Shown here in pieces: positions 2 through 54,666 of a stretch of 64,000 bases of DNA. Numbering within the stretch: position 1 is the first letter of the stretch; each line of letters opens with the position of its first letter. Location of the stretch: the NCBI RefSeq assembly GCF_001854805.1, contig NZ_MBLO01000222.1, forward strand, positions 62,001-126,000, given 5' to 3'. Made by a program: the position numbers and the translations under genes. The stretch is from Pseudofrankia coriaricola. GTDB taxonomy: Bacteria; Actinomycetota; Actinomycetes; Frankiales; Frankiaceae. The notes beneath the pieces are model-generated. The model had not been told where the DNA came from. It saw only the letters and a list, made by a program, of their open reading frames with translations, and did no database searches.

Positions 2-14707
<14,706 letters not shown>

Positions 14708-18917: not shown

Positions 18918-20660
18918 ATGGTGAGTTCGCGCTCTGGCGACGGTGCGTTGCCGGCCCGGCCGGTCGACGGACCGGCGACGCTCGAGAACTTCAACGACTT
19001 CAGCGTGCCCGCGGCCATCACGACCGTCGTCGATCTGTTCACGGCCCAGGTGCGGAGCACGCCGGAGGCGACCGCCGTCGTGGCTCCCGGGGCGCGGATG
19101 ACCTACGGGGAGTTCGGGGCGCGGGTGTTCCAGCTCGCGCGGGTACTGCGCGCCCGGGGCCTCGGCCCGGAGGACATCGTCGGCATCCGGCTGGTCCGGT
19201 CCGCCGAAATGGTCGTCGCGCTGCTCGCGGTCATGGTCGCCGGCGGGGCCTTCGTCCCGATCGAGCCGGGATGGCCCGACCAGCGGCGCCGGCGGGTGCT
19301 GGCCGACGCGCGGGCCCGGCTGATCGTGACCGATGCGGAGGCGCCGGCCACGCCCGGCGGCCTGGTAGACGGCGGGTTGGTAGACGGCGGGTTGGTCGAC
19401 GGCGGGTTGGTCGACGGAGTGCCGGCCGTCCCGGTCGACCTGGACGCCTGGTCCTGGGGCGCCGAGTCGGCCGAGCCGCTCGATCTGCCGATCCCACCGG
19501 CGGGGCTGGCGTACGTGATCTTCACCTCAGGGTCGACCGGCGCTCCCAAGGGGGCGATGATCCGGCATGACGCGATCGCCGAGCGGCTGCGGTGGCAGGT
19601 GACGGACCTGTTCGGCTTCGGCCCGGACGACGCGTCCTTGTTCAAGGCGCCGCTGTCGTTCGACATCTCGATCAACGAGATCCTGCTGCCGCTGGTCTGC
19701 GGCGGCCGGCTGGTCATCGCGGAGCCGGACGGCGAGCTCGACCCGGGATACCTGGTCGACCTGATCGAGGGCGAGCGGGTCACCTTCGTCTACCTGGTGT
19801 CGTCGATGCTGGACATCCTGCTGGAGGCGGCGGAGGGCACGGAGGCGCTGGCCTCGCTGCGGCATGTCTGGTGCGGCGGAGAGGTGCTGACGCCCGCGCT
19901 CTTCGCCCGGTTCCGCGCCCAGCTCGGTACGGCGATGTACCACGGCTACGGACCGGCCGAGACGACGATCGGCGTCTCCCACGTGATCTACAAGGACGAC
20001 GCCGAGCGTCTCGCCGCGTCGATCGGCCGGCCCAACCCGCACACCCAGCTCCACGTCGTCGACGACACGATGGCACCGGTGCCCGACGGCGAGGTCGGTG
20101 AACTGTACGTGGCCGGGTTTCTGCTCGGCAGGGGCTATGTGAACAACGGGCCGCTGACCGCCGCGCGTTTTGTCGCGAACCCGTTCGTGGGCGGTGGCGA
20201 GCGGATGTACCGGACCGGGGACCTCGCCCGCTGGAACGCCGCCGGCTGGCTGGAGTTCGTTGGCCGGGCCGACAACCAGGTGAAGATCCGCGGGATGCGG
20301 CTCGAGCTGGAAGAGGTGGAGGCGGCGCTCGCCACGCACCCCCGGGTACGGCGGGCGGCGGTCGCGGTGTCCCGCGACACCGCCGCGCCCCGGCTGCTCG
20401 CCTTCGTCGTCCCCGATGCCGGCGCGACCGCCGCCGACCGTGCCGGGGGCTCCCCGGCGCCGGGGACGGCGGGTGAGCCGTTCGCCGACGAGGTGCTGGC
20501 CTGGTGCGCCGACCTGCTTCCCCAATACATGGTGCCGAGCGTCGTGACCGTGCTCGACACGCTCCCGGTCACCGCCGGCGGAAAGGTGGACCGCCGCGCT
20601 CTGACCGAATCGGCGTCAGCGCCCGCCCGCCCACGGACGCCATCCGTCGGACGGCGATAA
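18918..20660 (+). CDS. Free-standing NRPS adenylation domain, predicted N5-formyl-N5-hydroxyornithine
   Basis: 580 residues covering one complete A domain (A1-A10: [30 protein letters not shown], final GGKVD) with no carrier or condensation domain after it. Motifs FDISINE, FVYLVSS, VWCGGEV and [10 protein letters not shown] give pocket D-I-N-Y-W-G-G-I-G-K, the code reported for N5-formyl-N5-hydroxyornithine in the first module of coelichelin synthetase. The start ATG 18918 follows GAGGGGA. It sits behind two iron boxes and before a siderophore-binding lipoprotein. The NRPS at the left has one C-PCP-E module without an A domain, so this enzyme very likely acylates that carrier in trans; it could also serve a starter carrier outside the window. 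A loop carries four LVDGG repeats. Confidence 0.9.
19362..19421 (+). repeat. 15-bp tandem repeat, four units
   Basis: Units close to TTGGTCGACGGCGGG encode LVDGG four times in a loop of the free A domain. Confidence 0.95.
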
Positions 20661-22885: not shown

Positions 22886-23950
22886 TTGCGGTCTCGGTCC
22901 CCGCCGGATCGGTGTGGTCCCGGTGATCGCGGACGTCGCGCGGTGATTCTGGACCGCCAATCGTCGTCGGCGCCTTCGAGGCACTCCCGTGATGGCAGGG
23001 GAACGTCCACCCGCCCTCGCATCGACGGATCGCACGAGAGCGCGCCACCCAGATCGGGCGTCATCACGCTGAACGTCGTGTGGTTGGCTTTGCTGACCGT
23101 ACTGGCGGTCGCGGCCGTCGGGCGTGTTGTCTATCACGGCGTCAGCCATGACGTTCTCGCCTGGACGGTCGGCAGCTATTTCGTGACCGGCTTCGGCGTC
23201 ACGGTCGGATACCACCGATACCTGACGCACGAGGGCTTCCGGTGCTCGGCGGTTCTCCGCGCCATCCTGCTCTTCACGGGCGCCATGGCCATCCAGGGGA
23301 CCCTGGAAAGCTGGCGCAGAACGCACCTGGCCCATCACGCGCACACCGATGTGCGGGATCTCGACCCGCACACGCCGAACCAGTACGACGGTTTTTGGAT
23401 GGGTCTGTGGCATTCGCACGTGGGCTGGATGATGGTACATCAACAGCTTCCCGAGCCGTTCGACCAACGCAACGACGTCGATCTGCTCGTGCGGTGGCAG
23501 CGTCAGTACTACGCGGTGCCGGCGGTGTTGAGCTTCCTGATCCCGTGGGCCGCGACCGGCTGGCAGTTCGACGGGCTCCTCGTCGCCGGCTTCCTCCGGG
23601 TCTTTCTGCTGTTCCACTTCACGGCCTCGATCAACTCCGTCTGCCACATCTGGGGAACTCACGGCAGCCGGAAGCCGTCAGCGGTCCGCACCGCTCGCCT
23701 GGCTCGTGACTTCGCCCTGATCGCGCTCCCGACCATGGGTGAGGGATGGCACTGGATGCATCACGTGATTCCGGGGTGCGTGGTCCACGGGTCCGGCCTG
23801 CGTCCCGATCCCACGAAATGGCTGATCTGGTCGCTCGAGCGGTCGGGTCTCGCCCGGGACGTCAAGTGGTACAGAAAGGAGCGGGCCAGAATTCTCGGCT
23901 ACCGGCCCGCTCCGGTCGCCATGGACGCCGGCGGCCATCTGGATCGGTGA
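22886..23950 (+). CDS. Membrane fatty-acid (acyl-CoA) desaturase
   Basis: The conserved part starts near 23078 (VVWLALLTVLAV); the first ~60 residues from TTG 22886 are Arg/Ser-rich and probably not all translated, so the start is uncertain. The three histidine boxes of membrane diiron desaturases are present: HRYLTH, HLAHHAH and HWMHH, with four hydrophobic segments between. The third box has Trp-Met where Asn-Asn is usual. It should introduce a cis double bond into an acyl-CoA or acyl-lipid. It stands alone and is not an obvious partner of the second desaturase at 45.9 kb. Confidence 0.85.
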   Translation: MRSRSPPDRCGPGDRGRRAVILDRQSSSAPSRHSRDGRGTSTRPRIDGSHESAPPRSGVITLNVVWLALLTVLAVAAVGRVVYHGVSHDVLAWTVGSYFVTGFGVTVGYHRYLTHEGFRCSAVLRAILLFTGAMAIQGTLESWRRTHLAHHAHTDVRDLDPHTPNQYDGFWMGLWHSHVGWMMVHQQLPEPFDQRNDVDLLVRWQRQYYAVPAVLSFLIPWAATGWQFDGLLVAGFLRVFLLFHFTASINSVCHIWGTHGSRKPSAVRTARLARDFALIALPTMGEGWHWMHHVIPGCVVHGSGLRPDPTKWLIWSLERSGLARDVKWYRKERARILGYRPAPVAMDAGGHLDR

Positions 23951-45930: not shown

Positions 45931-46935
45931 ATGGCTGACGCCCAGCCTACGATGCACATTCCCGAGCCCGACAACGGGGCCGACGGACCGGAGCCGCGCA
46001 GAAAGACCATCAGCAGTCCCTATCTGCACCGCCTCCAGCGCCGCCACTTCCTGCTGTTCGACGTCGCGCCGATTCTCGGCACCGCGGCGGCCCTCGCCCT
46101 GCTGGCGGTGCGCCCCATCGGGGTCACGGAGGTCGCGCTGCTGTTCTCGCTGTGGCTCGTCACCGGGCTCGGGGTGACCGTGGGCTATCACCGGCTCTTC
46201 ACCCACCGCACCTTCAAGGCGGTGCCCGCCGTCGCGAGCACGCTCGCGGTGCTCGGTTCGATGGCGGGCCAGGGCCCCGTGGTGTCCTGGGTCGCCCTGC
46301 ACCGGCGTCACCACGAGCGCAGCGACCGCGAGGGGGACCCACACTCGCCCAACCTCGCCGGCGGGGGCGCGCGGGGCCGGCTGCGCGGCCTCGCCCACTC
46401 CCACTTCCTGTGGATGCGTCGGCACGAGTACCCGAACGTCGCGCACTACGCGCCAGACCTGATCAGGAACCGCCCGCTGCTGCGCGTCGCCCGGCTCTAC
46501 TACTACTGGGTCGCGCTCGGGCTCGCGGTCCCCGCGCTTGTCGGCGGGATCGTCTACCAGAGCTGGACCGGAGCGCTGAGCTGCTTGCTCTGGGGCGGGC
46601 TGGTGCGGATGTTCGTGCTGGAACACATCATCTGGTCGATCAACTCCGTGCTGCACATGGTCGGTACCCGTCCCTACCAGTCCCGGGACAGGAGCAGAAA
46701 CGGCGCTTTCTTCGCCCTGCTGACTCTCGGGGAGTCCTGGCACAACAACCATCACGCGTTCCCGGAGTCGCCCTCCTTCGGGCTGAGCTGGTACCGCCTG
46801 GACCCGGGCTACTGGCTGATAAGGCTGCTCGCGGCCTGCGGCCTCGCCTCGGATCTCGGCGTTCCGTCCAAGGAACGAATCAGGTCGAGGCGCGTGTCCA
46901 GGAAAGACGATCCCGTCACCGCCGCCGCGGCATAA
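45931..46935 (+). CDS. Membrane fatty-acyl desaturase, first gene of a lipid operon
   Basis: 334 residues from ATG 45931. Three histidine boxes are intact: HRLFTH, HRRHHE and HNNHH, between about four hydrophobic segments. The layout fits acyl-CoA/ACP desaturases; acetylenases such as JamB share this fold, so desaturation to an alkyne cannot be excluded. The ACP gene starts 12 bp later and a FAAL follows in the same operon, so the substrate is probably an ACP-bound fatty acid. Confidence 0.92.
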   Translation: MADAQPTMHIPEPDNGADGPEPRRKTISSPYLHRLQRRHFLLFDVAPILGTAAALALLAVRPIGVTEVALLFSLWLVTGLGVTVGYHRLFTHRTFKAVPAVASTLAVLGSMAGQGPVVSWVALHRRHHERSDREGDPHSPNLAGGGARGRLRGLAHSHFLWMRRHEYPNVAHYAPDLIRNRPLLRVARLYYYWVALGLAVPALVGGIVYQSWTGALSCLLWGGLVRMFVLEHIIWSINSVLHMVGTRPYQSRDRSRNGAFFALLTLGESWHNNHHAFPESPSFGLSWYRLDPGYWLIRLLAACGLASDLGVPSKERIRSRRVSRKDDPVTAAAA

Positions 46936-46947
46936 GGAGCAGCCAAG

Positions 46948-47211
46948 ATGACGCCATCCCAGGCGGAGATCGTCCAGTGGTGCCGGGCGTATCTCGCCGA
47001 CCTGCTCGAGGTGTCGGTCGAGTCGATCGACCCGGACGCGGACTTCGACCGGCTGGGAGTCGACTCCGCGCTCGCCGTGTCCCTGCTGATCGAGGTCGAG
47101 GAGCGCTACGGCGTGGACCTCCCGCCGGAGGCGTTGTTCGAGAACCCGAACCTGAGCGCGGTCGCCGCGTACCTGTACGCCCACAGCCCGCGGCAGGTGG
47201 CCCAGCCGTGA
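46948..47211 (+). CDS. Acyl carrier protein
   Basis: 87 residues from ATG 46948. The pantetheine site is LGVDSAL (Ser in FDRLGVDSALAV), with the usual four-helix pattern LLEVSVESIDPDADF and YGVDLPPEALFENPNLSAVAAYL. Its stop overlaps the next start as GTGA. It is the likely scaffold that carries the acyl chain between the FAAL, desaturase, methyltransferase and P450 of this operon. Confidence 0.93.
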   Translation: MTPSQAEIVQWCRAYLADLLEVSVESIDPDADFDRLGVDSALAVSLLIEVEERYGVDLPPEALFENPNLSAVAAYLYAHSPRQVAQP

Positions 47212-48131
47212 CGGCCGTGTCGGCCGACACCGGCCGGACCAGTCAGGCCGCGGCGGCGATCCGTCACCACTACGACGTCGGCAACGCGTTCTACAGCCTC
47301 TGGCTGGACCGGTCCCTGACCTACTCGTGCGCGATGCCCGCCGGTGACGACGACACTCTCGAAGCCGCCCAGGAACGGAAGATCCGTTTTCACCTGGACG
47401 CGATCGGTGCCGGTCAGGCCACGAGCGTCCTGGACATCGGCTGCGGATGGGGCGCGGTCCTGGCGCGGCTGGCCGAGACGCACCGCGTCGCCCGGGCCGT
47501 CGGGCTCACCCTCAGCGACGAACAGGCGGCCTACGTCCGCGACCGCGGATACCCCGGCGTGGAGGTCCGGACGGACAACTGGCTGGACTACGAGCCGGCG
47601 GCCCCGTTCGACGGGATCATCTCGATCGGCGCCTTCGAGCACTTCGCCACCCCGGCGGACCCACCGGCCGAGAAGGTGCGCCTGTACCGGGAGTTCTTCC
47701 GCCGCTGCCACGGCTGGCTCAACCAGGGCGGCGTGCTGTCGCTTCAGACGATCGCCTACGCGAACATGTCCCGCGACGACGCGAGCGCGTTCATGCAGCG
47801 GGAGATCTTTCCGAACGCGGACCTGCCGACCCTGGCGGAGATCACGGCCGCCGCGGAGGGCGTGTTCGAGGTGCGGTCGGTGAGCAACGGCCGCCTCGAC
47901 TACGCGTGGACCTGCGAGCGGTGGGCACGCCGGCTGCGCTCCCGCCGCGACGAGGCCGCCGGGCTCGTCGGACCGGAGACGGTGGCGCGGTACGAGCGCT
48001 ACCTGAAGCTCTCGGCGCTCGGATTCCGCATGGGGAAGATCTGCCTGTTGAGGATCGTGCTGCGCCCATATGACCAGCGGTATTTCGCGGGCTCGGGGGA
48101 CCGCCGGTACTTCGCGGGCCCGGGGGAGTAG
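47208..48131 (+). CDS. Cyclopropane-fatty-acid-synthase-like SAM methyltransferase
   Basis: 307 residues from GTG 47208. The start IRHHYDVGNAFYSLWLD and LTYSCA, the SAM site VLDIGCGWGAVLARL and the SIGAFEHF stretch (Glu and His of the bicarbonate site) define the CFA/mycolic acid synthase family. Enzymes of this type add a methylene or methyl group to a cis double bond, which the desaturase of this operon could supply. Conservation of every catalytic residue was not checked by alignment. The P450 start follows 4 bp after the stop. Confidence 0.9.
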   Translation: MTAVSADTGRTSQAAAAIRHHYDVGNAFYSLWLDRSLTYSCAMPAGDDDTLEAAQERKIRFHLDAIGAGQATSVLDIGCGWGAVLARLAETHRVARAVGLTLSDEQAAYVRDRGYPGVEVRTDNWLDYEPAAPFDGIISIGAFEHFATPADPPAEKVRLYREFFRRCHGWLNQGGVLSLQTIAYANMSRDDASAFMQREIFPNADLPTLAEITAAAEGVFEVRSVSNGRLDYAWTCERWARRLRSRRDEAAGLVGPETVARYERYLKLSALGFRMGKICLLRIVLRPYDQRYFAGSGDRRYFAGPGE

Positions 48132-48135
48132 GCGG

Positions 48136-49413
48136 ATGGTCCCGCGGACGCGGCCGGTGGGCGTCGAGCGCGCGGCCGAGCAGCCTCGGCCGCCGGTCCG
48201 GTTCAACCCCTTCAGCGCCGAGTTCCAGCGCGATCCCTATCCGGTCTACCGCGAGCTGCGCGAGATCCGGCCCGTGCACAGGACGCTGGGCATGTGGGTC
48301 CTGACCCGGCACGCGGATGTGCGGGGCGTGCTGCGTGACCGCACGTTCAGCGCCGGGCTCATCCCGCGGCTGGTCAGCCAGCAGGCGGACCGGTTCGCGC
48401 ATGTCGACGCGGACCGGATCGTGCGGCTGGGGAACAAGTCGCTGGTCTTCACCGACAACCCGGACCATGCGCGGCTACGTGGCCTGGTGAACCGTGTTTT
48501 CACCGCGCCGGCGGCCGCCAGGCTTCGGCCCCGTGTCTCCCAGATCGCCGAGCGCCTGGTGCAGCGGGCCCTGGACGACGGCGGCATGGACGCCATGGCC
48601 GACTTCGCCGCGGTCCTGCCGCTCACGGTCATGTGCGACTGGATGGACCTGCCGGGCAGCCTGCGCGCGCAGGTCGGCCCCTGGACCCACGACATCCGTT
48701 TCCTGCTCGAGCCGGGGCTGATGAGAGCCGACGACTTCGTGCGCGTCGCGCAGGTCGTCGACCTGTTCGCGCACGCTCTCGACGAGGTCGTCGCCCACCG
48801 GCGATCCGCGCCGGGCGACGACCTGATCAGCCACCTGCTCGCCGCCCGCACCGGCGGCGGCGGCGACCGACTCAGCGACGAAGAGCTCGTCTTTGTCTGC
48901 ATCATGTGCTTCGTGGCCGGCAACGAGACCACAAAATCCCTCATCGGCAACGGCCTGCTCGCACTGCTGCGCCATCCTGACCAGGGCGATCTCCTACGCG
49001 ACCGGCCCGCGCTGGGCAAGAGCGCCGTCACCGAGGCCCTGCGCTATGACAGCCCGCTCCAGCTCACCAAGCGGGTCGCCACCCGTGACGTCGAGATCGG
49101 GGAGGAGCGGGTGCGGACGGGCGACCAGGTTCTCCTGTGCCTGGGCGCGGCGAACCGCGATCCCGCGGTGTTCGGCGAGCCGGACGACTTCGACATCGGC
49201 CGGGACGCGCGGGGGCATCTCGCGTTCGGCCACGGGATGCACGGATGCCTGGGAGGAGTTCTCGCCGAGCTGCAGGCCGAGATCGCCTTCGACCACCTGT
49301 TCCGGCGCGTCGGGCGCCTGGAGCTGCTCGGCGGTCAGCTCCAGTGGCAGGACCACAGCTTCATCGTCCGCGGCCTGAAAAACCTGCCGGTCACGGTTCG
49401 GGGCCGCGGGTGA
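48136..49413 (+). CDS. Cytochrome P450
   Basis: 425 residues from ATG 48136. The I-helix oxygen motif is FVAGNETT, the ExxR motif is EALR, and the heme loop is FGHGMHGCLGG with the axial Cys. A soluble bacterial class I P450, needing a ferredoxin and reductase from elsewhere. In the operon context it probably hydroxylates or further oxidises the acyl chain on the ACP. Its stop overlaps the thioesterase start as GTGA. Confidence 0.95.
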   Translation: MVPRTRPVGVERAAEQPRPPVRFNPFSAEFQRDPYPVYRELREIRPVHRTLGMWVLTRHADVRGVLRDRTFSAGLIPRLVSQQADRFAHVDADRIVRLGNKSLVFTDNPDHARLRGLVNRVFTAPAAARLRPRVSQIAERLVQRALDDGGMDAMADFAAVLPLTVMCDWMDLPGSLRAQVGPWTHDIRFLLEPGLMRADDFVRVAQVVDLFAHALDEVVAHRRSAPGDDLISHLLAARTGGGGDRLSDEELVFVCIMCFVAGNETTKSLIGNGLLALLRHPDQGDLLRDRPALGKSAVTEALRYDSPLQLTKRVATRDVEIGEERVRTGDQVLLCLGAANRDPAVFGEPDDFDIGRDARGHLAFGHGMHGCLGGVLAELQAEIAFDHLFRRVGRLELLGGQLQWQDHSFIVRGLKNLPVTVRGRG

Positions 49414-50171
49414 CGGCCGGCCGGCTCCTGACCGACCCCTGGCTGCGAACGGGCACAGGGCCGCGACGGGAGCCGTCGGACGCGGCCGTGCGGCTGCTGT
49501 GCCTCCCACACGCGGGCGCCGGCGCCGCGTCGTTCAACCGCTGGCTCGGCCTGTTCGGGCCGTCGATCGCGGTGGTGCGCGTCCAGCTGCCCGGTCGTGA
49601 GGACGTCGCGGCGCTGCCCGCGTTCCGCCGGGTCCGCGACGCCGTCGACGCCCTCCTGCCGCGGGTCAGGCGGCACGGCGACCTGCCGGTGGCGCTCTAC
49701 GGCCACAGCATGGGCGCCCTGGTCGCCTTCGAGCTGGCCAGGGCCCTCGACGCCGAGGGGGTGCCACCGCTGCATCTGTTCGTCTCCGGGCGCCGGGCAC
49801 CGCAGCGGCCGGCGCGTACGGCGCCGGTTCATCACCTGCCTGACGAGGCGTTCGCCGCCGCGCTGGCCACGATGGGTGGGACGGCACCGCCCCTGGGCCG
49901 AAGCCCGGCGCTCCTGCGGTACTCGCTCGGGCTGATCCGCGCCGATCTGGAGCTGTCCGAGGAGTACGCGTACCAGCCGGGTGCCCGGCTGGGCTGCCCA
50001 ATCACGGCCTTCCACGGAACTGAGGACCCGATTGTCACCGCGGCCGAGGTGGCCGCCTGGGGGGACCTGACCGCGGCGGACTTCGGGATGCACGCGTTCT
50101 CCGGCGACCATTTCTTTCATCAGCGTCATCGATCGGCGATCGCGACGCACATCACCCGGGCGTTGGGGTGA
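49410..50171 (+). CDS. Type II (editing) thioesterase
   Basis: 253 residues from GTG 49410. The start LLCLPHAGAGAASFNRW, the nucleophile motif YGHSMGALV, HGTEDPIV with the Asp and SGDHFFHQ with the catalytic His are typical of alpha/beta-hydrolase type II thioesterases. It clears stalled or wrong acyl groups from carrier proteins. It shows that this operon runs on a carrier-protein system. Confidence 0.93.
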   Translation: MTAGRLLTDPWLRTGTGPRREPSDAAVRLLCLPHAGAGAASFNRWLGLFGPSIAVVRVQLPGREDVAALPAFRRVRDAVDALLPRVRRHGDLPVALYGHSMGALVAFELARALDAEGVPPLHLFVSGRRAPQRPARTAPVHHLPDEAFAAALATMGGTAPPLGRSPALLRYSLGLIRADLELSEEYAYQPGARLGCPITAFHGTEDPIVTAAEVAAWGDLTAADFGMHAFSGDHFFHQRHRSAIATHITRALG

Positions 50172-50210
50172 GCTTCCGGCGCCCCACCCGGACAGCGGAC
50201 AGGGCAGGGC

Positions 50211-51932
50211 ATGACACAGCAAGGAACACCGCTTCCCGATGTTCTGCGCCGCCGCGCGACCGACGAGCCGGCCGCCAGGGCATACGTCTTCGTCAACGAG
50301 TACCTGGAGGAGACCGCGGTGCTGACCTACCGCGACCTCCACACGCGGGCGCTGGCCGTGGCCGAGCAGCTGCGCCGGCACTGCGAACCGGGTGACCGGG
50401 CGCTGCTCCTGTTCCCGCCGGGCCTCGACTTCATCGTCGCGTATTTCGGCTGCCTCTTCGCGCAGGTCATCGCGGTTCCCGCCAGCCCGCCGCGCAGGAA
50501 TCACGTTCAGGACGCGACATACCGCATCGTCCGGGACTGCGCGCCGGCCGTGGTGCTCACCGTCGGCGCGATGCTCGAGGCCACCAGGGCCGCGCTGGAG
50601 CCCTTGCATCCGGAGCTGCGCTGGCTCCCGGTCGACCAGCTGCCCGACGCCCCGGACGGCGGATTCGAGCCTCAGCCGTGCCCGCCGGACGCCATCGCCT
50701 TCCTCCAGTACACGTCGGGATCGACCTCCGATCCCAAGGGCGTCATGGTCTCGCACCGGAACCTGTCCGCGAACGAGGAGATGATCCGGCGCGCGTTCGG
50801 CCACGACGCGTACTCGACCGTCGTCGGCTGGGCGCCGCTGTTCCACGACCAGGGCCTGATCGGGAACGTCCTGCAGCCCCTCCACCTCGGGGCCACCAGC
50901 ATCCTCATGTCACCGGGGGCGTTCATCCGCTGGCCGCTGCTCTGGCTTTCGGCCATCTCCCGCTACCGCGCGCATACCAGCGGCGGGCCGAACTTCGCCT
51001 TTGACGCCTGTGTCGCCCGCGCCGCCCGCGGGGGACTGCCCGAGCTCGACCTGAGCTGCTGGAAGGTCGCGTTCAACGGCGCCGAGCCCATCCGGCCCGA
51101 GACGCTGCGCGGCTTTGCCGACGCGTTCGCGCCCTTCGGATTCAGCGAGAACGCGCTGTACCCCTGCTACGGCCTGGCCGAGGCGACACTGCTGGTGACC
51201 GGCAGCGAGAAGGGCCGCGGTCCGCGCATGCTCGAGATGGACACCGAAGCGCTCGGCCGCGGACGGTACGCCGCCGCCCGCGGTGGCGGCGGTCGGACTC
51301 TCGCCGGATCGGGCATCGCCCTGTCCGACGAGCACGTCCGGATCGTGGACCCGGAGACGCTGCGCCCCTGTCCCGACGACCACATCGGCGAGGTCTGGGT
51401 CGCCGGCGAGCACGTCGCGCGGGGTTACTGGGGACGCCCGGAGGCCACTGCCGGCACCTTCCAGGCCGAGTGCGCCGGTGAACCTGGCCGCGCCTATCTG
51501 CGCACGGGCGATCTCGGCCTGGTGGTCGACGGCGAACTGTACGTCGTGGGCCGGCTGAAGGACGTCGTCATCATCCGGGGCAGGAACTACTACCCCCAGG
51601 ACATCGAGCACACGGCGCAGTCCTCGCATCCCGCGCTGCGGGCCGGTGGGTGCGCCGCCTTCTCGGTTCCCGGCGCCGGCGGCGAGAAGCTTGTGGTCGT
51701 CCAGGAGATCAGGGCCGAGCAGCGGCGGAAGGCCGACGCGAACGAGGTCGCCGCGTCGATCCGCGCGGCGGTGCTGCGAGAGCACGAGCTTTCGGTGGGC
51801 GACCTGGTGCTCACGCTGCCCGGCCGCCTCCCGAAGACCAGCAGTGGCAAGATCATGCGGGCCGCCGCTCGGAAACGTTACCTCGAGGCCGGTTTCGAGC
51901 TCTGGACGGCGCAGACGTCCTCGGTCGCCTGA
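50211..51932 (+). CDS. Fatty acyl-AMP ligase (FAAL)
   Basis: 573 residues from ATG 50211. AMP-binding motifs are YTSGSTSDPKGVMVSH, WAPLFHDQGLIGNV, the PCYGLAEATL motif and a C-terminal KTSSGKIMR. The HDQGLIG stretch and the YGLAEATL motif are typical of FAALs, which make fatty acyl-AMP and load it on an ACP rather than on CoA. It should charge the ACP at 46948. Confidence 0.92.
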   Translation: MTQQGTPLPDVLRRRATDEPAARAYVFVNEYLEETAVLTYRDLHTRALAVAEQLRRHCEPGDRALLLFPPGLDFIVAYFGCLFAQVIAVPASPPRRNHVQDATYRIVRDCAPAVVLTVGAMLEATRAALEPLHPELRWLPVDQLPDAPDGGFEPQPCPPDAIAFLQYTSGSTSDPKGVMVSHRNLSANEEMIRRAFGHDAYSTVVGWAPLFHDQGLIGNVLQPLHLGATSILMSPGAFIRWPLLWLSAISRYRAHTSGGPNFAFDACVARAARGGLPELDLSCWKVAFNGAEPIRPETLRGFADAFAPFGFSENALYPCYGLAEATLLVTGSEKGRGPRMLEMDTEALGRGRYAAARGGGGRTLAGSGIALSDEHVRIVDPETLRPCPDDHIGEVWVAGEHVARGYWGRPEATAGTFQAECAGEPGRAYLRTGDLGLVVDGELYVVGRLKDVVIIRGRNYYPQDIEHTAQSSHPALRAGGCAAFSVPGAGGEKLVVVQEIRAEQRRKADANEVAASIRAAVLREHELSVGDLVLTLPGRLPKTSSGKIMRAAARKRYLEAGFELWTAQTSSVA

Positions 51933-51948
51933 CGGCCCGACCTGTGGA

Positions 51949-51993
51949 ATGGCGGCACGCGGAAAAACGGCACGTGGAAGGACGGTACGTGGA
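51949..51993 (+). repeat. 15-bp tandem repeat, three units, before the thioesterase start
   Basis: ATGGCGGCACGCGGA, AAAACGGCACGTGGA and AGGACGGTACGTGGA. The last unit creates both the ribosome-binding site and the GTG start of the next gene. Confidence 0.8.
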
Positions 51994-52435
51994 CGTTTTC
52001 ACGGCGCAGAATCCCGACTTCGCCGAGGCCGTGCGGGCCGCGGTGCTCAGCATGCCCGCCGCCAGGCATCTGGGATTCGTGTTCGGGCGGATCGCGCCGG
52101 GCGAGGTCGAGATCGTTCAGCCGTACCGAGAGGAGCTGACCCAGCACGACGGTTTCATTCAGGGAGGCGTGCTCGGCGCCCTGGCGGACTTCGCCGGGGG
52201 CTCGGCCGCCGGAACGCTGCTGCCGCCGGGATGGACGAACATGACCATCGACTACACGGTCAAGATCGTGGCGCCGGCCAGGGGCGACAGTGTGGTGGCG
52301 CGTGGGCGGGTCGTCAAACCCGGAATGACCCTGTCCGTGGCCGCCGCGGATGTCTTCGCGCTCGGCGACACGGGGGAGACGCTGTGCGCGACCGCTCTCG
52401 TGACCATGCGCAATCTCCGCATACCCAGGACCTGA
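51989..52435 (+). CDS. PaaI-family hotdog thioesterase, last gene of the lipid operon
   Basis: 148 residues from GTG 51989, chosen because GAAGGACGG lies at the right distance; GTG 51944 and 51974 are also in frame. The core is THDGF-like (TQHDGFIQGGVLGALADFAGG), followed by MTIDYTVKIVAPA. It may release the finished fatty acid or act on its CoA ester. It sits 56 bp after the FAAL. Confidence 0.88.
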   Translation: MDVFTAQNPDFAEAVRAAVLSMPAARHLGFVFGRIAPGEVEIVQPYREELTQHDGFIQGGVLGALADFAGGSAAGTLLPPGWTNMTIDYTVKIVAPARGDSVVARGRVVKPGMTLSVAAADVFALGDTGETLCATALVTMRNLRIPRT

Positions 52436-53841: not shown

Positions 53842-54666
53842 TTATGCCTGGTCGGCCGCGTCGAGGAACTTCGCCAGCAAATCGGTGATCGCGGCGGGTT
53901 GTTCCAGGGTGCTCGTGTGCCCGCAGTTCGGGATGATCTGTAGCTTGGCGCCGGGAATACCGGCGGCCAGGCGTTCGGCGTCCGCCGGCGGCGTGGCCAG
54001 GTCGTCGGCGCCGACGACGACGAGCGTGGGAACGGTGATTCCGCCGATCTCCTGGTACACCGGCACGCGGTCCGCCACCGCGAGGACCGCACGGCGAATC
54101 CCGGCGCGGTCGCCACGGCGTAGCCGGCGGACCCACTCGTCCATGACGGGTTCGCTACCCGGGTCGGCGAGGAAGCCCGCACCGAACAGGAGCGGGGCGA
54201 CCTTGCTCTTGACCGGCCTGATGCCGAGGAACCGGTAGGCCAGGGAAAGCAGCCGAAACTCCCCGACCCTGTCAGGATTTTCCGGGCCGGCACTCGTGTC
54301 CAACAGGGTCAACGAGCGCAGCAGCTCGCCGTGGCGGGCCGCGAGGCGTTGCCCGACGAATCCACCCATGGACAGTCCGACCCAGTGAACCGGGGCCACG
54401 TCGAGCTTCTGGATCAGGGCGACCGCGTCGTTGGTGAGGGTGTCCATGTCATAACCGCCGGGGGCCGCCGGACTGGCGCCCTGTCCCCGCCAGTCCACCG
54501 CCACGCAGCGGTATCTGTCGCGCAGAGCGGTGATCTGCGGGCGAAACATCCAGCCGCCGAACAGCAGCCCGTGGCCGAACACGATCGTCGGCGCGTCGGG
54601 CAGGTCGGTGGGAGCTCCGGTGTCGGAGTAGGAGATCGTCGCCCCGCTGACGTCGATGGTCGGCAT
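53842..54666 (-). CDS. Alpha/beta-fold hydrolase
   Basis: 274 residues from ATG 54666. The nucleophile elbow is GLSMGGFV; the oxyanion region FGHGLLFGGWMF and WRGQGAS precede it; the acid and His are in VVGADDLATPP and NCGHTSTLEQP. The fold fits small esterases, lactonases or C-C hydrolases such as 3-oxoadipate enol-lactonase. No pathway neighbours fix the substrate. Confidence 0.9.
   Translation of the reverse strand: MPTIDVSGATISYSDTGAPTDLPDAPTIVFGHGLLFGGWMFRPQITALRDRYRCVAVDWRGQGASPAAPGGYDMDTLTNDAVALIQKLDVAPVHWVGLSMGGFVGQRLAARHGELLRSLTLLDTSAGPENPDRVGEFRLLSLAYRFLGIRPVKSKVAPLLFGAGFLADPGSEPVMDEWVRRLRRGDRAGIRRAVLAVADRVPVYQEIGGITVPTLVVVGADDLATPPADAERLAAGIPGAKLQIIPNCGHTSTLEQPAAITDLLAKFLDAADQA

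Follow-up and report, generated by a model that had tools for sequence, protein, structure and literature searches.

A patchy, apparently mobile fatty-acid cassette with a predicted carrier-bound C1-modification step in Pseudofrankia coriaricola and other bacteria

In the jamABC cassette of the jamaicamide pathway, a stand-alone fatty acyl-AMP ligase (FAAL), a desaturase and an acyl carrier protein (ACP) load and modify a fatty acid before its use (PMC11837247, PMC8406139). Polyyne clusters (caryoynencin, protegencin) likewise contain FAAL, ACP, desaturase, and thioesterase, and an actinobacterial subset of them carries a cytochrome P450 (PMC8406139). The cyclopropane fatty acid (CFA) and mycolic-acid methyltransferase family (PF02353, here CMAS) includes the mycolic-acid enzymes CmaA1 and MmaA4 and the E. 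coli type CFA synthase, and in the Labrenzia CFAS3/7 cluster free medium-chain modified fatty acids have been assigned to CFA-family enzymes. Here we describe a seven-gene operon in a 64,000-nucleotide stretch of Pseudofrankia coriaricola DNA (contig NZ_MBLO01000222.1, positions 62,001 to 126,000; "the window"), in which neighboring FAAL, desaturase, and ACP genes, as in jamABC-type cassettes, are accompanied by a CMAS gene. We consider it probable that this operon is a mobile, self-contained lipid-tailoring cassette by which a fatty acid would be activated on an ACP, desaturated, C1-modified, oxidized, and freed.

An earlier annotation made from the letters alone (the sequence-only reading) had called a seven-gene lipid operon here, and all seven genes were recovered where it had placed them, on the + strand at window positions 45931-52435:

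45931..46935, + strand: DES, membrane fatty-acid desaturase (PF00487), 334 aa; FA_desaturase 5e-25; three His boxes, HRLFTH/HRRHH/HNNHH
46948..47211, + strand: ACP, stand-alone acyl carrier protein, 87 aa; PP-binding 1e-19; DSA motif
47208..48131, + strand: CMAS, CFA/mycolic-acid methyltransferase family (PF02353), 307 aa; CMAS 6e-64; C41, E144, and Y232 kept, Q180
48136..49413, + strand: cytochrome P450, 425 aa; p450 5e-30; heme Cys motif FGHGMHGCLG
49410..50171, + strand: TEII, type II alpha/beta-hydrolase thioesterase (RifR-like), 253 aa; Thioesterase 2e-39; GHSMG
50211..51932, + strand: FAAL, fatty acyl-AMP ligase, 573 aa; AMP-binding 6e-65, DIP2-like C-terminal domain; YTSGST/RTGD/GRLKD
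51989..52435, + strand: hotdog-fold thioesterase (TIGR00369), about 148 aa; 4HBT 1e-5; start codon inferred

Families were assigned from Pfam and NCBIfam profile matches, and the catalytic motifs are intact in the operon proteins. The genes are as tightly coupled as the sequence-only reading had held, with gaps from stop to next start of 12, -4 (a GTGA overlap), 4, -4, 39, and about 56 bp, the last figure depending on the start codon chosen for the hotdog gene. The FAAL is similar over nearly its full length to the proven FAALs FadD23 (2.5e-106, residues 7-562) and FadD32 (1.7e-99, residues 38-562), both with solved structures, and it scores under the curated cut-offs of the NCBIfam FAAL models. 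The closest solved relatives of the P450 are many bacterial P450s, and those of the TEII are RifR-type and other thioesterases. Also in agreement with the earlier annotation, no polyketide synthase (PKS) or nonribosomal peptide synthetase (NRPS) follows the operon in the open reading frames (ORFs) scanned downstream to 63983. A scan for promoters and terminators found no sigma-70-like site and a terminator count the same as in shuffled sequence, and the divergent ROK gene fell in no ORF family common to at least three cassette loci.

What follows is inferred from this gene content, in every reaction and in the sequence of steps as much as in the length and nature of the lipid made. The FAAL would adenylate a free fatty acid and load it onto the operon's own ACP, and the membrane desaturase would put one double bond into the ACP-bound chain. 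The CMAS-family enzyme would then move a methyl cation from S-adenosylmethionine to that double bond, and the carbocation so formed could end as a methyl branch, a hydroxy-methyl pair, or a cyclopropane. Oxidation of the chain would fall to the P450 (two in some relatives), and the TEII or the hotdog thioesterase would free the acid, so that the window and most copies in Frankiaceae would yield a free, oxidized, C1-modified fatty acid. Elsewhere the same core would supply a PKS or an NRPS, and in Sphingobium it perhaps supplies a synthase of acyl-homoserine lactones. The pathway proposed by the sequence-only reading is kept as a prediction in its activation by FAAL and ACP, desaturation, C1 addition, oxidation, and release, the last with exactly one thioesterase in 12 of 12 assessable loci and both in the window; its alkyne variant found no support.

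The CMAS tree (METHYLTRANSFERASE; midpoint root) holds 89 of 135 rows, every second one of the 92 rows below 40% identity having been left out and BLAST segments spanning fewer than 200 query residues having been dropped before counts were made. Three large groups stand out in it: one of 18 rows holds the mycolate enzymes (100/100), one of 22 (100/99) we take by assumption for ordinary CFA synthases, and one of 48 (98/89) includes the window. Within 6 kb of the genes of this last group, window included, FAAL was matched in 40 cases, DES in 38, and ACP in 35, which ties this CMAS to an ACP pathway more than to membrane phospholipids. An AlphaFold model of the protein (pLDDT 87.8) superimposes on CmaA1 with Z 35.8 and 1.9 A over 267 residues, and on MmaA4 with Z 31.9. 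With its 307 aa, the protein covers only the catalytic portion of CFA synthases of solved structure, its match starting near their residue 107, and thus is without the N-terminal lipid-binding domain that those enzymes possess (domain described in PMC11387697). C1 addition by this enzyme is likely.

In cyclopropane synthases, bicarbonate is bound by a Glu, a His, and a Tyr (PMC11387697, PMC9821293), the His being H167 in CmaA1 and His266 in E. coli (PMC9821293, PMC11387697). This set is incomplete in the window CMAS, where E144 and Y232 are present and the His is replaced by Q180. The Gln is invariant in the 18 rows of one CMAS alignment and occupies the site in 42 of the 43 rows with at least 40% identity, window included; across 121 aligned rows the site holds His in 79, Gln in 39, and another residue in 3, and within the 48-row tree group Gln in 45, His in 2, and another residue in 1. 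Among the six solved mycolic-acid enzymes that the comparison covered, PcaA, CmaA1, CmaA2, MmaA2, and UmaA have His and only MmaA4 has Gln; the carbocation of MmaA4 is said to become a methyl alcohol (PMC8708032). A simple rule by which His or Gln sets the product has against it UmaA, which has His and is no cyclopropane synthase (PMC8708032), and four mycobacterial rows outside the kin of MmaA4 that also have Gln; for one of these four, the nearest solved enzyme is the cyclopropane synthase PcaA.

It is quite possible, if somewhat doubtful, that the CMAS is a normal cyclopropane synthase despite its Gln, and that the product is an oxidized, ACP-derived cyclopropyl acid like the cyanobacterial lyngbyoic and majusculoic acids, an outcome that would be a branch of the pathway set out above and compatible with it. 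The closest fold relatives of the protein are the cyclopropane synthases CmaA1, MmaA2, and CmaA2, it retains C41 along with the two remaining ligands, and a Gln-bearing mycobacterial enzyme (L055; L and G numbers are our handles for loci and genomes) has PcaA as its best solved match. Medium-chain cyclopropyl acids are known from cyanobacteria (PMC6213206), and some cyanobacteria have the same core, but our comparisons linked no known producer of such acids to this CMAS group, the near-constant Gln replaces a ligand of cyclopropane synthases, and the one solved mycolic-acid enzyme that shares it makes a hydroxylated compound. Because the bicarbonate-ligand His is nearly always Gln in this clade, as in the hydroxymycolate synthase MmaA4, a cyclopropane is unproven; as the CMAS product it is uncertain, with a methyl-branched or hydroxy-methyl acid as likely. 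Of the earlier phrase "methylate or cyclopropanate", C1 addition stands as a prediction, and neither alternative is favored, the ligand His of the cyclopropane synthases being replaced.

Joined together, these elements would make the CMAS group an unrecognized branch of CFA/mycolate methyltransferases acting on ACP-bound chains, in which the Gln type quenches the carbocation with water or by proton loss in the manner of MmaA4 rather than forming a cyclopropane ring. The cassette would then yield a free, P450-oxidized lipid with a hydroxy-methyl pair or a methyl branch, which would serve as a diffusible signal or an antibiotic; plasmids would have carried the trait through Actinomycetota, Alphaproteobacteria, and Cyanobacteria, with a Sphingobium offshoot leading to a C1-modified acyl-homoserine lactone. 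We regard this combined picture as speculative and rather unlikely to hold in all its parts.

The sequence-only reading had named clustering of the desaturase with housekeeping delta-9 enzymes as part of what would count against it. In a 58-row desaturase tree, the 22 cassette desaturases, those of Thalassospira and of G796 included, form one side of a branch (100/100), and the nearest paralog in the host genome (L129) falls in a separate 18-row group (100/97); BLAST segments spanning fewer than 220 query residues had been dropped. The cassette enzyme thus does not cluster with Frankiaceae or actinobacterial paralogs, a result that holds only as far as our assumption that the paralog group is of the ordinary delta-9 type. 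The enzyme families alone would fit a housekeeping modification of membrane lipids, with desaturation and cyclopropanation of phospholipids. This explanation does not account for the operon's own FAAL and ACP, for a desaturase outside the paralog group of its own genome, for a CMAS outside the presumed CFA synthase group and without its N-terminal domain, or for the patchy presence of the cassette; the desaturase and CMAS trees led us to reject it, and we hold it to be very improbable.

The desaturase tree also bears on the suggestion that the operon is an alkyne- or polyyne-forming cassette of the jamABC type with extra genes. A trio of FAAL, desaturase, and ACP genes side by side is what the two have in common, and such a trio around a CcnK-like desaturase has been read as alkyne potential (PMC8406139). 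The operon, however, has a single desaturase rather than three (of the two other matches in the genome, one is in the window some 22 kb upstream of the operon and one belongs to a different contig), and the CMAS encoded between ACP and P450 would consume the alkene. Two polyyne-type desaturases from a Streptomyces cluster (L042) also fall outside the cassette group, both on long, poorly placed rows. The alkyne suggestion, having no positive support beyond the common trio, was dropped as the main interpretation on the single desaturase and the desaturase tree, and we give it hardly any credence. The window gene upstream, at 22886-23950 on the + strand, encodes a second, distant desaturase (PF00487 3e-15) with a long branch in the tree.

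Release was assessed from the two thioesterase genes by tblastn at E<=1e-4, leaving out a cut locus (L035), the decayed L036, and G007. Among the 13 other Frankiaceae loci with an intact cassette, eight have the hotdog gene only, four the TEII only, and L037 has the TEII on a contig that ends too soon, so that exactly one of the two is present in each of the 12 assessable loci; the window has both. Both are also present in the Rhodococcus and Thalassospira copies, the Pseudonocardia copy has the TEII plus PaaI-type thioesterase genes flanking both sides, and Nocardia vinacea retains, besides its hotdog gene, a short remnant of the TEII. A thioesterase in every assessable locus fits a needed release step, and the seeming interchangeability of the two types favors hydrolytic release of the product as the predicted last step.

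The distribution of the operon is patchy, and the cassette appears to be mobile. Of 35 Frankiaceae genomes searched for CMAS orthologs (E<=1e-60) and desaturase orthologs (E<=1e-85), 16 had the one and 16 the other, the window's own genome included, the two sets differing by G007, with the desaturase at a contig end, and G029, with fragments. The cassette is therefore present in 17 of 35, once decayed (G029) and once seen in part (G007), and in two of the eight genomes of the window's genus (its own and, in part, G007). All 15 further Frankiaceae loci found through CMAS agree with the window in the order DES-ACP-CMAS-P450 and in strand, with 58-80% protein identity, G029 counting by remnants in which DES and P450 are fragments only. 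This conservation, like that on the Thalassospira plasmid described below, marks the grouping as more than a chance one. DES and ACP are present in 15 of 15 of these loci (one DES fragmented) and FAAL in 14 (one fragmented), the remaining contig ending before the FAAL. The decayed cassette (L036 7855-12200, G029) has fragments of desaturase, P450, and FAAL beside a nearly full CMAS.

Outside Frankiaceae, the cassette occurs in Nocardia vinacea, N. acididurans, and on plasmids of Pseudonocardia alni, Rhodococcus opacus, and Thalassospira marina, with the gene order kept on the three plasmids and in N. vinacea; the plasmid of Thalassospira, an alphaproteobacterium, has seven of seven genes in the same order at 32-53% identity. 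G796, from a sample centered on Scytonema and taken as a cyanobacterium, has DES-ACP-CMAS-P450-FAAL-DES-hotdog. Such a CMAS is rare in even phylum samples (centre genome counted), being found at the strict cut-off of E<=1e-75, which misses weaker relatives, in 3 of 396 genomes around the window, 8 of 386 around Scytonema, and 1 of 398 around Veronia. Two non-centre actinobacteria have such a CMAS and no cassette (G446 with CMAS and FAAL, G406 with CMAS only). In a five-gene tree, which did not resolve the placement of the window row, groupings cross genera: G023 (genus g2) stands with G019 and G031 (g6) at 100/99, and G016 (g6) with g3 at 92/98. Together with the plasmids and the patchy presence, these crossings suggest that the cassette may have been transferred repeatedly.

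A number of observations weigh against the proposed ACP-bound, jointly moving pathway. The only solved relatives of the cassette desaturase are stearoyl-CoA desaturases, and it could act on acyl-CoA or a lipid instead of acyl-ACP. Seven of the 48 rows of the CMAS group have no FAAL, ACP, or DES match within 6 kb, and in Nocardia acididurans (L148) neither thioesterase was found by tblastn. Most cassette loci were found through the CMAS, so its presence there is not independent evidence. In the CMAS tree, the cyanobacterial seven-gene copy (L138) stands apart from the other cassettes and Sphingobium falls inside them, and the desaturase tree differs; this disagreement indicates that the cassette has not moved throughout as one block.

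A wider core of FAAL, DES, ACP, and CMAS without the P450 was found in a Scytonema metagenome-assembled genome, in L155-L157 from its sample, in Veronia, on a Polaromonas plasmid, and on Tistrella pTM3. The seven non-centre genomes of the Scytonema sample comprise L158 with a P450, three with the four-gene core, L159 without an ACP match, and L160 and L161 with CMAS alone. In L156, the core is followed by a ketosynthase-acyltransferase (KS-AT) protein, and in L045 by a second FAAL and then an NRPS. Each of the Scytonema loci L045 (6002-20266) and L149 combines FAAL, DES, and ACP genes with a tandem of three CMAS genes. Plasmid pSRL2 of Sphingobium indicum B90A (L124 10878-14758) has in a row a LuxI-type synthase, an ACP, a Gln-type CMAS, and a FAAL, with no desaturase, and is possibly a pathway to a C1-modified acyl-homoserine lactone. 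On the Thalassospira plasmid (L043 247-6208), the seven genes are followed by TauD-type dioxygenase, aldolase-family, Pnap_2097-family, and adenylation-carrier-condensation genes, from which the acid there may be carried on into a larger product.

Some relatives of the operon carry a second P450 after the hotdog gene (L025, used as the query, and L024, L028, L030, and L044 at 72-90% identity to that of L025, with pieces in L027), and next after it an alpha/beta hydrolase gene. The window has a counterpart of the latter:

53842..54666, - strand: alpha/beta hydrolase, 274 aa; homolog adjoins the cassette in six other loci

Its homologs in these six loci share 64-71% identity (partial in L027), so the hydrolase probably belongs to the wider locus; the second P450 was not found in the window, though the hydrolase is kept. 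L032, L033, and L036 have homologous large ORFs on the upstream side of the cassette, and the sole one scanned (L033 3-5633, in a Frankia genome) is a PKS with ketosynthase, acyltransferase, ketoreductase, ACP, and thioesterase domains (KS-AT-KR-ACP-TE). FRAAL3447, a beta-ketoacyl synthase whose tag is near the cassette, was 10.8-fold and joint top of the proteins over-abundant in propionate-fed cells (PMC10252897); it may or may not be this PKS gene.

Farther upstream in the window, region 122-21771 contains an NRPS of 4861 aa with six condensation, three adenylation, and one methyltransferase stretches, and near it a YqcI/YcgG-family gene, a stand-alone adenylation enzyme, and a periplasmic-binding-protein gene; the region is possibly a siderophore cluster. 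The adenylation gene ends at 20660 and the NRPS at 14707, 25 and 31 kb from the operon, and a tie between them and the operon was rejected because of this distance of 25-31 kb and of the intervening genes, which, as far as scanned, include ones for sugar transport, a regulator, and other functions.

We also weighed a symbiotic function in Frankia, with the lipid serving signaling or persistence in root nodules, which we think unlikely. The window strain, Frankia sp. BMG5.36 (cluster 4, now Pseudofrankia), was isolated from a Coriaria nodule, but it is non-infective, having re-infected neither its own nor other hosts tested (PMC9680954, PMC5391423). A published phyloprofile lists 108 genes that seven symbiotic strains retain and that CN3 and DC12 lack (PMC10252897). 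FRAAL3449, FRAAL3451, and FRAAL3453 belong to this list, and each of the three tags appears once in the main text, in Table 1, uncommented. Their starts (3738250, 3739662, 3742003) lie at most 70 bases from cassette matches in G012, and the tags are not named in the other open-licence literature searched. The proteins that F. coriariae expresses with root exudates include a CFA-synthase (PMC5411423), which may or may not be the cassette CMAS, and Francci3_0307, one desaturase row in the CcI3 transcriptome paper (PMC3188489), was not linked to the cassette locus.

Counting as nifD-positive the 24 genomes over the model cut-off and G021, whose gene is in two pieces, the cassette is present in 15 of 25 nifD-positive and 2 of 10 nifD-negative genomes (Fisher p=0.06, kinship ignored; counts 15/10/2/8 with the G007 desaturase, and 14/11/2/8 with p=0.07 without it). 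Ten nifD-positive genomes had neither CMAS nor DES at the cut-offs used, the 15 carriers include the decayed copy of G029, and the cassette is also on the Rhodococcus, Pseudonocardia, and Thalassospira plasmids. It does not show the distribution of a symbiosis gene set, present in nodulating fixers and absent from non-infective strains; one of the two nifD-negative carriers is the non-infective window strain. G029 is presumably strain QA3. The published comparison counted QA3 as a carrier (PMC10252897); its threshold, 50% identity across 80% of whichever protein is shorter, is one that fragments could pass. The link between cassette and symbiosis is weak.

In comparison with described systems, the sequence-only reading had known of no cluster with this gene set, and we also found none described as a unit in the open-licence literature, although three of the genes are listed singly in Table 1 of PMC10252897; those three entries of the Frankia symbiosis gene list are here suggested to belong to one patchy mobile operon. 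Unlike jamABC, the cassette adds a CMAS, a P450, and two thioesterases, has no assembly line after it in the window, and gives no sign of a second dehydrogenation. Unlike the polyyne clusters, with their three desaturases, it has one plus a CMAS, and the main text of the polyyne survey contains neither "cyclopropane" nor "methyltransferase" (PMC8406139). Reading any trio of FAAL, desaturase, and ACP as an alkyne pathway may overcount. The cassette CMAS has the fold and the C/E/Y active-site residues of CmaA1 and MmaA4, and Gln at the His site as in MmaA4, but falls in a separate tree group, mostly beside FAAL and ACP genes. It shares the PF02353 catalytic domain with E. coli type CFA synthase and differs in lacking the N-terminal lipid domain, in having Gln at the His266 position, and in its 30% identity. 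Beside the Labrenzia CFAS3/7 cluster, the genes named are homoserine O-acetyltransferase, MetW, aminotransferase, and chorismate mutase, rather than FAAL, ACP, and desaturase, in the part of that source available. These comparisons point to an ACP-linked group of CFA-type enzymes with an altered active site, of which we found no description, and to a concrete orphan product to seek in Frankia, Nocardia, Rhodococcus, and Thalassospira. The cassette would carry the FAAL/ACP/desaturase scheme known from alkyne pathways over to the addition of one carbon to a carrier-bound chain.

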